NCBI GenBank assembly: GCA_027028665.1
Contig: JALVIU010000112.1
Span: 1 to 5,290 of the forward strand
Length of the DNA: 5,290 bases
Direction: 5' to 3'
Source of the DNA: Candidatus Atribacteria bacterium
GTDB lineage: Bacteria > Atribacterota > JALVIU01
This document shows positions 969-5,290 of this stretch, in pieces. Under the pieces are notes generated by a model, which was not told the origin of the DNA, ran no database searches, and was given only the letters and a program-made list of their open reading frames with translations. The stretch's first letter is position 1, and every line of letters starts with the position of its first letter. The translations under genes and the position numbers were made by a program.

Positions 969-979
969 ATCACCTACCT
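969..979 (-). promoter_or_regulatory. Ribosome binding site of the NuoI-like gene, overlapping the upstream stop
   Basis: The minus-strand sequence AGGTAGGTGAT lies 3 nt before ATG 965. Its internal TAG is the stop codon of the NuoD-like gene, so termination and initiation sites share bases, a layout typical of translational coupling. Confidence 0.65.
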
Positions 980-2071
980 ATCTATTTCTGGAGGGCATAC
1001 ATCCAGACTAAACATTATTTGAGATACATCTGCAAGATAATTTCCCGGTAAAAGCTTTTCTAAAATATGTATACCGTGTGTCATAGAAGCACCTCTTATA
1101 TAAACCCTGTAAGGCTTATCCTTTCCATTGCTTACCATATAGTATCCGTATTCCCCTTTAGAAGATTCCACCTTCACATAGGCATCACCAGGGGGTACTA
1201 TAAATCTCATAGGATTGGGAACCTTTTCCCTTATTGGACCATCAGGAATATTATCAAGTGCCTGACGTATAATCTTTATACTCTCCACTACCTCCATCCG
1301 CCTTATCATTATTCTATCATAGGCATCTCCACCTGTAAGCACAGGGATCTCGAAATCTAATTCTCCATAGGCGGCATATGGATCATCTTTTCTGGTGTCT
1401 GCCTTCACCCCTGATGCCCTGAGATTTGGCCCTGTAACACCCCACTCTATAGCATCTTCTTTGTTTATTATACCTATACCTCTTGCTCTTTTCTTAAACA
1501 TATAAGAATCAAAATACAGTTTATTATAATCATCAAGGCGCTTCTCAAGATAATTCAATACATCCTTTGCCTTCTCAATAAAGCCATCAGGTAAATCCCT
1601 TCTTACACCTCCAGGGTATATAAATATATGATATACTCTCCCCCCTGTTAACATTTCAAACAGATCAAGAATAAAATCACGATCACTTATCGTCCAATTA
1701 GGAATAGTGTAAAGACCTATAGAACCTGCATGACCTCCAAATGTAAACAGATGAGAGGCGATCCTGGAAAACTCAAGCACTATAGTTCTAATGTATTTTG
1801 CCCGTGGTGGCGGCTCTATTCCTAAGAGTTTTTCTACCGCCATGGCGTAATTTGCCTCATTGGGGTCAGGATCTGGTACACAAATACGGCAAACTATAGG
1901 GACATTATGTATAAACCCCCTCATTTCCATTAATTTCTCAAAGCCTCTATGCAGAAAACCAGGATTAGGGGTAGCTTTTTTTACTACATTTCCTTCAAGC
2001 TCAAGAATAACACTAAAATTTCCTGTTATTCCTACATGTTGAGGTCCTATAAAGAGTTCATATGTCTTCAA
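974..2071 (-). CDS. mbxL: NuoD-like / hydrogenase-large-subunit-like catalytic subunit, three of four [NiFe] cysteines
   Basis: This 365-residue protein belongs to the NuoD / group 4 [NiFe]-hydrogenase large-subunit superfamily. Family marks are IGPQH (8-12), PGFLHRGFEKLMEMR (37-51), AVEKLLGIE (78-86), YPGGVRRDLPDGF (152-164), GPNLRASG (214-221) and a C-terminal IDR tail (363-365). The N-terminal CxxC is present as C61-R-I-C64, but the C-terminal DPCxxC is D-V-C359-P-P-E362, so the second cysteine of that pair is Glu. A Pro/Asp-rich loop VPDPDP follows C64. The quinone-site His of complex I (second His of HPSTHG) is T16 here. The protein ends at IDR, with no C-terminal extension of the kind removed during hydrogenase maturation. 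Hence neither a standard [NiFe] site nor a quinone site is expected, and an MbxL-type sulfane sulfur reductase role fits best. The start is TTG, preceded by a strong ribosome binding site; no in-frame ATG exists before residue 48, which would delete conserved sequence. Ech or Mbh hydrogenase is the rejected alternative. Confidence 0.88.
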   Translation of the reverse strand: MKTYELFIGPQHVGITGNFSVILELEGNVVKKATPNPGFLHRGFEKLMEMRGFIHNVPIVCRICVPDPDPNEANYAMAVEKLLGIEPPPRAKYIRTIVLEFSRIASHLFTFGGHAGSIGLYTIPNWTISDRDFILDLFEMLTGGRVYHIFIYPGGVRRDLPDGFIEKAKDVLNYLEKRLDDYNKLYFDSYMFKKRARGIGIINKEDAIEWGVTGPNLRASGVKADTRKDDPYAAYGELDFEIPVLTGGDAYDRIMIRRMEVVESIKIIRQALDNIPDGPIREKVPNPMRFIVPPGDAYVKVESSKGEYGYYMVSNGKDKPYRVYIRGASMTHGIHILEKLLPGNYLADVSQIMFSLDVCPPEIDR

Positions 2072-2562: not shown

Positions 2563-3096
2563 TTAATCTTCTCCCTCTATTATACCCCTATTTTTAAAAA
2601 CTTTATCTTGATTTGCCTTATATCTTTCATAATGTATCTTATATAATTTATATCCATTGGCTTCTCCCTTTTCAATCTTTTCTCGAAGTTCTAAAAAGGC
2701 TGCAAAGATCGCATCTGGTGCAGGCATACAGCCTGAGATATAGACATCCACAGGGAGATAATAGTCTAATTTGTTGATAGTTGCATAGGAATCCCAATAC
2801 ATACCACCATTTATTGTACATGACCCAAATCCTATTACATATTTAGGGTCAAGCATTTGCTCATATGTAGTAATAACCCTTTTCAGGGTTTTCACAGAGA
2901 GATAACCTGTTATAAGTAATACATCAGCCTGCCTGGGAGAGGCCATGGGTATAATACCAAAACGCTCCAGGTCATATCTTGAAGTCATAGAAGGAGGAAG
3001 TTCTATAGCACCACAACCAGTACAGAAGTGTAAAAGCCACATAGAACGGCCTTTAAACCAACGGGCAACCTTTCCTCCACGAAAGCTCTCTAACAT
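2563..3096 (-). CDS. mbxJ: NuoB-like small [4Fe-4S] subunit of an Mbx-type complex
   Basis: This is the small Fe-S subunit that passes electrons to the large subunit. From ATG 3096 it has 177 residues. Candidate cluster ligands are C25 and C28 in HFCTGCGAIELPPS, C93 in GFGSCTINGGMYWDS, and C123 in YISGCMPAPDAI, the standard NuoB / hydrogenase small-subunit layout. The spacing C28-G-A-I-E resembles the C-C-A-I-E of complex I with the second tandem Cys replaced by Gly, while C25 supplies a CxxC as in hydrogenases: a hybrid form. I chose ATG 3096 because AAGGAGGT stands 4 nt upstream. A longer frame can begin at TTG 3120, which would add eight residues, overlap the upstream gene and lack a site of this quality. 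The gene begins 10 nt after the NuoH-like stop. Family call secure; mbxJ follows from context. Confidence 0.88.
   Translation of the reverse strand: MLESFRGGKVARWFKGRSMWLLHFCTGCGAIELPPSMTSRYDLERFGIIPMASPRQADVLLITGYLSVKTLKRVITTYEQMLDPKYVIGFGSCTINGGMYWDSYATINKLDYYLPVDVYISGCMPAPDAIFAAFLELREKIEKGEANGYKLYKIHYERYKANQDKVFKNRGIIEGED
2571..2577 (-). promoter_or_regulatory. Ribosome binding site of the NuoC-like gene
   Basis: The minus-strand sequence GAGGGAG lies 10 nt before ATG 2560, inside the last codons of the NuoB-like gene. It therefore also encodes part of that protein's Ile-Glu-Gly-Glu-Asp tail. It is the weakest-spaced site of the operon. Confidence 0.5.
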
Positions 3097-3100
3097 AGAA

Positions 3101-3108
3101 ACCTCCTT
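3101..3108 (-). promoter_or_regulatory. Ribosome binding site deciding the start of the NuoB-like gene
   Basis: The minus-strand sequence AAGGAGGT is a full match to the consensus and lies 4 nt before ATG 3096. Its first two bases belong to the TAA stop of the NuoH-like gene (3107-3109). It sits downstream of the alternative TTG 3120 and so cannot serve that start, which settles the choice for ATG 3096. Confidence 0.85.
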
Positions 3109-3991
3109 AGATAAAGACAAATATAAGACTTATAAGTCCAAGAATTGCAGGCCACTTCCAATAAAATTTAAAGGCCTGATCCATTCTAAATCTCGGCATT
3201 ATTGCATTTATAAATATTGCCAGAAGGAATACCACAAGCATTTTTAATGAAAAAGTAATAATATTTGCACCCCCACCTAAGAATAGATCTACAAACAGGG
3301 CAAGTTCAGTAAATAAGTGAAGAGATGCGAATATCTGCAACATACCCAGATATTTACCCCCATATTCAACCATGGGTCCTGAATTTATCTCATGGGGTGC
3401 AATAGGTATATCAAAAGGCTTCTCCCCTAAAATACCCTGAAGAGCAATATCAAATACCAGAGCAGAAAGGGGTATAACAAATATGGCCCACCATCCTGAG
3501 GTAACCTGTTTTTGAATAATAGCTGAGATAGATGTAGTATTGTATTTTAATATTACTCCTACTATTGCCAAAACAAGGGGAAACTCGTATGAAAGCATAA
3601 GGGAAAGTCCTCTGGATACACCTATCGCAGCATTGGGATTGCCAGAGTCTCCTGCACCAAGGGCCATGCCCAGTGAACCTATAACACCTAAATAAAGAAC
3701 CAATATAAGATCTCCGTGCATAGAAAATAGTGCATATTTACCTATAGGGATAAAGAATAAGGTCAAGAGAGAGCCTGCTATTCCTATGGCAGGGCCCAGC
3801 ATATACATTACACCATGAGTTATATTATCCTCTTTGGTGAGCAATTTAAGAGTGTCAAAGTAAGGCTGAATCACAGGAGGACCGTATCTTCTATGGATCC
3901 TCGCTGTTACCTTTCTTGCAATACCTAAAAACAAAAGACCTATCAAAATTGCTATTATCGGAACGATAATAATATTATAGAGAAATAACAT
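3107..3991 (-). CDS. mbxM: NuoH-like membrane anchor subunit of an Mbx-type complex
   Basis: This 294-residue integral membrane protein is the anchor that joins the peripheral arm to the antiporter subunits (NuoH / HycD / EchB / MbxM family). About eight membrane segments are visible, near 4-24, 65-84, 94-112, 134-150, 168-187, 214-238, 247-264 and 280-294. Cytoplasmic loops carry family motifs: RRYGPPVIQPYFDTLKLLTKED (34-55), SYEFPLV (134-140), PFDIPIAPHEINSGPMVEY (192-210) and MPRFRMDQ (265-272). The acidic residues E136, D194, E201, E209 and E229 fall where this family keeps charged residues for the coupling pathway. The length is close to Mbx/Ech proteins and shorter than most NuoH. Its position before the NuoB-like gene is as in mbx and ech and unlike mbh, where the NuoH homologue follows the large subunit. 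ATG 3991 has an AGGAGG site. Family call secure. Confidence 0.9.
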   Translation of the reverse strand: MLFLYNIIIVPIIAILIGLLFLGIARKVTARIHRRYGPPVIQPYFDTLKLLTKEDNITHGVMYMLGPAIGIAGSLLTLFFIPIGKYALFSMHGDLILVLYLGVIGSLGMALGAGDSGNPNAAIGVSRGLSLMLSYEFPLVLAIVGVILKYNTTSISAIIQKQVTSGWWAIFVIPLSALVFDIALQGILGEKPFDIPIAPHEINSGPMVEYGGKYLGMLQIFASLHLFTELALFVDLFLGGGANIITFSLKMLVVFLLAIFINAIMPRFRMDQAFKFYWKWPAILGLISLIFVFI

Positions 3992-3996
3992 CTATT

Positions 3997-4003
3997 CCTC
4001 CTA
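3997..4003 (-). promoter_or_regulatory. Ribosome binding site of the NuoH-like gene, overlapping the upstream stop
   Basis: The minus-strand sequence TAGGAGG lies 5 nt before ATG 3991. Its TAG is the stop codon of the antiporter-like gene, so the two genes share the stop/ribosome-binding bases. Confidence 0.8.
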
Positions 4004-5290
4004 TACGATTAATTTCGAAAATATTAAAACAAAACATATGAAAATTATAAAGTAAAGAACATATGTTTCCAGGTTTCCATTATACCATAAACGGATAACG
4101 CCAGATCCTTTTACCACCCAGCTTGAAAGACTCTCGTACAATTTATGGGCACTTATCCTAAGATATGGGAGTATTACCTCTTCAAGAGGCCTGTAGAAAT
4201 AATAGGAGTAATGATAAGGGACATCCTCCCCTAAAATCTCTCCAGATGCAAAGGTATCCAGCTTACTAACCTTTCTGGATGGGGCGCCAAAGAAGAATAC
4301 CAAAAGCGCAATTACAAAGGCCCACCCTAAAAGAATAAATACCCAGAAGGCGTTCCAGCTTCCAAGAGGAGATGCTACTTGGGTCATTGTATAATTTATA
4401 GGTGCAAGACCTATCTCTCCTAAGATCTTAGAAATTAATCCAAGGACAAGTCCTGGGAATACACCAAATATGTATGCAAAGAATAGAAAGATAAGCATTA
4501 CTATTTGCATGGGCAGAGGAACCTCTTTTAGGGTAGCAAATTTTACTGGCCTTTGGCCAAGGAATATAGAATGGATCAATCTAAATACATACATAAAAGA
4601 AGCTGTTGTAGCCAGGAATAAAAGGGTTGCCATAAATATCATCTTGTTTGCAATAAGGGCCTCATACAGCATCCACTTAGAGGCAAACCCACCAGAAGGA
4701 GGAATTCCTGCAAGTGCAATTATACCTCCTAAAACCACCATAAAGGTAATTGGCATATTTGGAAGCAGGCCACCCATCTCACTTAACTTACGTGTTTTCG
4801 TTCTATATATTACACTGGCTACAGCAAAAAATAGCATGCCCTTAAACACTGCATGGTTAAGGGCATGAAATAGTGCCCCACCAACTCCAAGGCTTGTACC
4901 TATGAAGAGACCTGTTACAATATAGCCAAGCTGGCTTATACTGGAAAATGCAAGAAGTTTCTTCGCATCATCCTGGAAAAATGCCATAATAGCACCTAAA
5001 AATGCCGTTATAGCACCCAAAAGGGCAATAATATAAAATATACAAGAAAGACCGAAGGGTCCTCCTTTATATATAGATGATATAGTCTTAAAAAGTGGTA
5101 GGGAAAAAAGCGAGACAAATAGTGCAAAGATACCTAACTTACTTAAGATACCTGAAAAGAATGGTGTAAATCCATTAGGGGCCTCAGTATAGGCAAAGGG
5201 TGCCCATGTATGTAAAGGCATAAGGGCAGCCTTTACACCAAAAGCTATGGTAAAAAGTATCATGGTAAATATTAGATATCCAGGAGAAAG
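4001..5290 (-). CDS. mbxH': Antiporter-like (MrpD/NuoL/M/N-type) ion-pumping subunit, 5' end beyond the window
   Basis: The frame is open to the right edge, giving 429 visible residues; ATG 5263 is internal, since residues before it (LSPGYLIFT) continue the same membrane helix. The fragment begins at about the TM7 region, so roughly 200 N-terminal residues are missing, including the TM5 Glu. In fragment numbering, visible proton-path residues are K20 in VKAALMPLHTW, H142, H146 and K150 in FHALNHAVFKGMLFF, and K205 in PPSGGFASKW; LLAFSSISQLGY (112-123) is a further family motif. After about twelve helices the C-terminus has LDTFASGE, a charged amphipathic stretch YYFYRPLEEVILPYLR (about 363-378) extending to 393, and a last helix (410-429). 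This resembles the lateral helix plus extra TM of the subunit next to the NuoH homologue. Position beside mbxM suggests MbxH'; EchA or HyfB-like are alternatives. Family secure, exact paralogue inferred. Confidence 0.85.
   Translation of the reverse strand, partial: LSPGYLIFTMILFTIAFGVKAALMPLHTWAPFAYTEAPNGFTPFFSGILSKLGIFALFVSLFSLPLFKTISSIYKGGPFGLSCIFYIIALLGAITAFLGAIMAFFQDDAKKLLAFSSISQLGYIVTGLFIGTSLGVGGALFHALNHAVFKGMLFFAVASVIYRTKTRKLSEMGGLLPNMPITFMVVLGGIIALAGIPPSGGFASKWMLYEALIANKMIFMATLLFLATTASFMYVFRLIHSIFLGQRPVKFATLKEVPLPMQIVMLIFLFFAYIFGVFPGLVLGLISKILGEIGLAPINYTMTQVASPLGSWNAFWVFILLGWAFVIALLVFFFGAPSRKVSKLDTFASGEILGEDVPYHYSYYFYRPLEEVILPYLRISAHKLYESLSSWVVKGSGVIRLWYNGNLETYVLYFIIFICFVLIFSKLIV

Follow-up and report, generated by a model that had tools for sequence, protein, structure and literature searches.

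The question raised by this locus is what a hydrogenase-related large subunit with only three cysteines does, and whether these cysteines are remnants of the four that bind the [NiFe] centre and could hold a catalytic cluster of their own. The window, i.e. the whole stretch of DNA that was analysed (5,290 nucleotides of contig JALVIU010000112.1 from a Candidatus Atribacteria bacterium), carries on its minus strand the genes H, M, J, K, L and N, the order expected for an MBS/Mbx complex and found in Pyrococcus furiosus MBS. They encode an mbxH-type antiporter-like subunit (4001-5290, its 5' end cut by the window; PF00361, NF006419), the mbxM/NuoH-like membrane anchor (3107-3991, 294 aa; PF00146), the mbxJ/NuoB-like subunit (2563-3120, 185 aa), the mbxK/NuoC-like subunit (2084-2560, 158 aa; PF00329), the mbxL/NuoD-like large subunit (974-2071, 365 aa, TTG start) and a stand-alone mbxN/NuoI-like subunit with two [4Fe-4S] sites (492-965, 157 aa; Fer4 families). 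The window thus probably covers the peripheral arm of a bacterial-type Mbx/MBS complex together with some of its membrane arm; any Mrp genes upstream would fall beyond its edge. The gene after N, on the same strand and separated from it by 10 bases, encodes a DUF4384 protein (2-481) with a signal-peptide-like N-terminus, and no DUF4384-like gene was seen beside the examined relatives.

L is a full-length NuoD/MbsL homologue whose top PDB match is P. furiosus MbsL (6u8y_L, E=1.5e-123, about 52-53% identity), and the same MBS structure, 6u8y, ranks best for J. The AlphaFold2 model of L (mean pLDDT 90.3, pTM 0.91) is matched by Foldseek to 6u8y_L with a TM of 0.93, and also to complex I NuoD chains, a match that speaks for the fold of the modelled protein and not for its function. 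The residues to which the sequence-only reading drew attention are all present: C61 (TGC, 1889-1891), C64 (TGT, 1880-1882) and C359 (TGC, 995-997) are the only cysteines of the minus-strand ORF, and E362 is encoded by GAA (986-988).

Their correspondence to the hydrogenase ligands is different from the one first proposed, in which the three cysteines were three of the [NiFe] set. In the multiple alignment with MbhL (6cfw), HycE (7z0s) and other group 4 hydrogenases, the hydrogenase block E-R-[MIV]-C-G-I-C lies without gaps over C61-R62-I63-C64-V65-P66-D67 of the window, and the profile-profile alignment of 58 Mbx L proteins against six hydrogenases, also ungapped here, gives an identical register; the arginine of the R-x-C block (R62) is invariant. 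C64 is hence Cys1, D67 (GAT, 1871-1873) stands at the Cys2 position, C359 is Cys3 and E362 stands at the Cys4 position, while C61 lies outside the ligand positions. L retains two of the four [NiFe] cysteines, the same two as MbsL (C85 and C385, equivalent to C64 and C359), plus one extra cysteine. CRIC resembles the hydrogenase CxxC, but its register is shifted by three residues, a tempting misreading that the alignments correct; L is therefore no three-cysteine missing link from hydrogenase to MBS, and an evolutionary intermediate with three of the four cysteines is ruled out by the hydrogenase alignments.

In [NiFe] hydrogenases the bridging ligands are supplied by Cys2 and Cys4, the terminal ligands of the nickel by Cys1 and Cys3. 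Read in these terms, Mbx keeps the terminal-ligand pair (C64, C359) and has acids at the bridging pair (D67, E362), and a Ni-Fe centre is not expected in the window L. An acid, Asp or Glu, occupies position 67 in all Mbx, and in all non-hydrogenase rows but two NuoD rows. Position 362 had been taken for a special replacement; it is Glu or Asp throughout Mbx and complex I, in 115/115 non-hydrogenase rows with data, and for this reason E362 is an ordinary family residue and a sequencing error at its codon is excluded. The acids at both positions are kept by every Mbx relative sampled, and that at 362 persists even where all four [NiFe] cysteines are gone. Position 61 is mostly Glu in hydrogenases, Pro in Thermus complex I and Thermotogota Mbx, and Leu in P. 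furiosus MbsL.

An active group 4 [NiFe] hydrogenase, the reading that homology to MbhL and HycE would invite, is hardly credible. MBH (MbhL, 6CFW) and FHL (HycE, 7Z0S) share fold and ancestry with the window protein but have all four [NiFe] cysteines and a hydrogenase small-subunit loop, whereas here both ligand motifs are broken, Cys2 to Asp and Cys4 to Glu, and the J loop is of the MBS type. The L1 motif of group 4 hydrogenases, C[GS][ILV]C[AGNS]xxH (PMC7886697), has no match in C64-V-P-D67, nor in C61-R-I-C64, which brings Arg and Val and lacks the His, and where the L2 motif [DE][PL]Cx[AGST]Cx[DE][RL] would stand the window has DVCPPEIDR. Cys1 and Cys3 without Cys2 and Cys4 is the combination that marks an MBS/Mbx large subunit.

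The phylogeny gives the same answer. Relatives were collected from 43 genome loci and about 650 searched genomes, and the tree was built with the trait columns excluded. The split between hydrogenases and the rest (complex I and Mbx) has 100/100 support, so that a place for the window within the hydrogenase clade is discarded, and the Mbx/MBS clade (100/100) contains both 6u8y_L and the window L. Tree position and residue mapping hence agree with the earlier view of L as a subunit of Mbx/MBS type, not of a hydrogenase, with a necessarily incomplete [NiFe] site. The window falls in the RIC half of the Mbx clade (95/95), grouped with the loci L093, L104 and L105 (90/97, not starred), whose L proteins are 63-66% identical to it; P. 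furiosus MbsL, unlike the window, has Leu at the C61 position and occupies a long branch of its own within the Mbx tree. Searching the classes of the genomes G386 and G358 gave no relatives closer than those already found, a viral-contig scan gave no match, and a plasmid search gave matches all below 60% identity (39% among the matches listed, nuoD included).

Concerning the states at positions 61, 64 and 359, Thermococcales show L/C/C; nearly all Thermotogota and the Hippea-like genomes show P/C/C; the window, L093, L104 and a large clade spanning several phyla show C/C/C; and another bacterial clade, having lost all four [NiFe] cysteines, shows C/N/(V,T,S,A). The Thermotogota and Hippea-like Mbx otherwise resemble the window (L about 48-59% identical, RICVP[ED]PD and CPPEIDR-type motifs, CTGCG in J), although they differ in Pro61 and in N, to which an NfnB-like NAD(P)H domain is usually fused. 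CRIC is also found in L093 and L104 (~66% identical to the window) and 25 other rows, which makes a sequencing error at codon 61 unlikely. C61 varies even among the closest relatives: L105, one of the window's group of four, has Pro61 instead. C61 is neither unique to the window nor defining, recurring in many bacterial relatives and being Pro in a near sister, and is required neither for the fold nor for family membership. L is a normal Mbx/MBS large subunit with an extra cysteine common among bacterial relatives.

Two side branches deserve mention. The CRIN clade without Cys at 359 (L006-L010, L016, L025, L061, L086-L091, L101, L114, L128 and L131) has lost the four [NiFe] cysteines as complex I has; in some genomes a C/N complex occurs alongside a C/C/C one, the CRIN complex of L101 accompanying the CRIC complex of L093, and that of L114 accompanying L104. 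Within the C/C/C clade, L111 (1492-2586, plus strand) has C64 changed to Ala and C359 to Tyr, with C61 kept.

As to the catalytic site, the J subunit is informative. In P. furiosus MBS the catalyst is a site-differentiated [4Fe-4S] cluster bound by MbsJ C28, C93 and C123, a shorter J loop being the feature given for this three-cysteine, open-iron cluster (PMC7684303). The window J aligns without gaps with MbsJ (6u8y_J), its loop lacks three residues that hydrogenase small subunits have (L148 and L153 compared), and C36, C101 and C131 correspond to the ligands C28, C93 and C123, with C33 equivalent to the non-ligand C25; the J loop hallmark of MBS/Mbx is thus present together with all four cysteine equivalents.

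A catalytic Fe-S cluster or metal bound by L itself through C61, C64 and C359, with E362 as a ligand or an open site, was the suggestion of the sequence-only reading, and it is very improbable. It draws on the location of the three cysteines and E362 within the pair of loops from which hydrogenases bind their [NiFe] centre, and on the fact that C64 and C359 are kept or lost jointly with no exception. This joint behaviour, for which the tree gives about four changes per position and hence not enough events to test, may reflect a shared role, even though P. furiosus can do without the pair: activity is retained in the MbsL C85A/C385A enzyme, as it is in the MbsJ C25A enzyme, and the published MBS has three clusters only, in N and J (PMC7684303). 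Moreover, C61 is off the ligand position in both types of alignment, position 61 is Pro in the near sister L105 and Pro or Leu in nearly all Thermotogota and all sampled Thermococcales, and the acid at 362 is also kept without any [NiFe] cysteine, in the CRIN clade and in complex I. A ferredoxin-fed, complex I-like quinone reductase, which the shared NuoD fold and the high scores of NuoD family models would allow, is improbable as well; the quinone-binding His38 and Tyr87 of Nqo4 are Thr16 and Val65 in the window, J has CTGC at MBS spacing and not the tandem CC, and the tree places the window in Mbx.

A different role for C61 is offered by its surroundings. R141 and R121 of Yarrowia complex I are second-sphere residues of cluster N2 (PMC8042128); R62 aligns with R141 and follows the arginine of HRGxE by 20 residues, as R141 follows R121. 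Being beside R62, C61 is near the cluster in sequence terms, and it could be a fourth ligand or redox partner of the J proximal cluster that replaces MbsJ C25, such that bacterial Mbx of the C61 type would differ from P. furiosus MBS. The J position equivalent to C25 is Cys in 57/57 complexes with Pro or Leu61 and data, and Gly in 23/25 C/C/C complexes with data. However, these striking raw counts stem essentially from one clade and two single losses, and independent pairs on the tree show no association, so compensation by C61 for the loss of J C25 was rejected; furthermore, the window and L104 have both cysteines, and L127 combines Ser61 in L with Gly in J. The partner role for C61 is therefore unlikely. 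The broader version, in which C61 would be a ligand, a redox-active or a persulfide-carrying thiol of the J proximal cluster in many bacterial Mbx in place of a vestigial MbsJ C25, is a doubtful proposition, somewhat less probable still; if true, it would set these complexes apart chemically as a class of their own among hydrogenase-derived reductases, in which the window form still has both cysteines. The clade with GTGCG in J, i.e. with Gly at the MbsJ C25 position, comprises L094, L096-L100, L102, L106, L107, L111 and L115-L129, and its J is a natural counterpart of the C25A mutant.

The N subunit bears on the electron donor. Of the bacterial relatives in which the N gene is complete, nearly all (24 loci) have N fused to an NfnB-like domain, and it stands alone in two (L003 and L056); the fused proteins have an NfnB/GltD-like NAD(P)H domain and about 590-740 aa in total, and L093, L104 and L105 differ from the window in having such a fusion. 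The N of the region of L105 (L136, 10458-12749, plus strand, 763 aa) is fused to NfnB-like plus rubrerythrin domains, and the N of L137 is about as long (748 aa). The stand-alone N of the window resembles that of Thermococcales, and because it stands alone we infer ferredoxin as the donor; in most bacterial relatives the NAD(P)H-type domain fused to N may mean a reaction other than that of MBS.

Taken together, our analysis indicates that the complex is most likely a ferredoxin-dependent sulfane-sulfur reductase, another case of an already known type. Reduced ferredoxin would pass electrons to the two [4Fe-4S] clusters of N and from these to the proximal [4Fe-4S] cluster of J, held by C36, C101 and C131 with one open iron, which is predicted to cleave polysulfide or other sulfane sulfur; the H and M membrane subunits would couple this cleavage to ion pumping, and L would serve as a wall of the chamber. 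To this whole proposal, an Mbx/MBS complex with an open-iron J cluster cleaving sulfane sulfur and coupled ion pumping, we assign a probability of roughly 0.8. Thermotoga mbx is induced by S0 (PMC9431562); in the literature consulted, P. furiosus MBS is the only complex known to have been assayed, which counts against the proposal for the window.

The comparison with P. furiosus MBS nevertheless extends to the stand-alone N, to L with the same two [NiFe] cysteines and acids at the other two positions, and to the cysteines and short loop of J. The relatives can be regarded as natural experiments on the MBS mechanism, since they include complexes whose J lacks the C25 equivalent and complexes that have lost all four [NiFe] cysteines, and show C64 and C359 being lost as a pair. 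These observations are consistent with published work that places catalysis at the open-site cluster of J and not in L.
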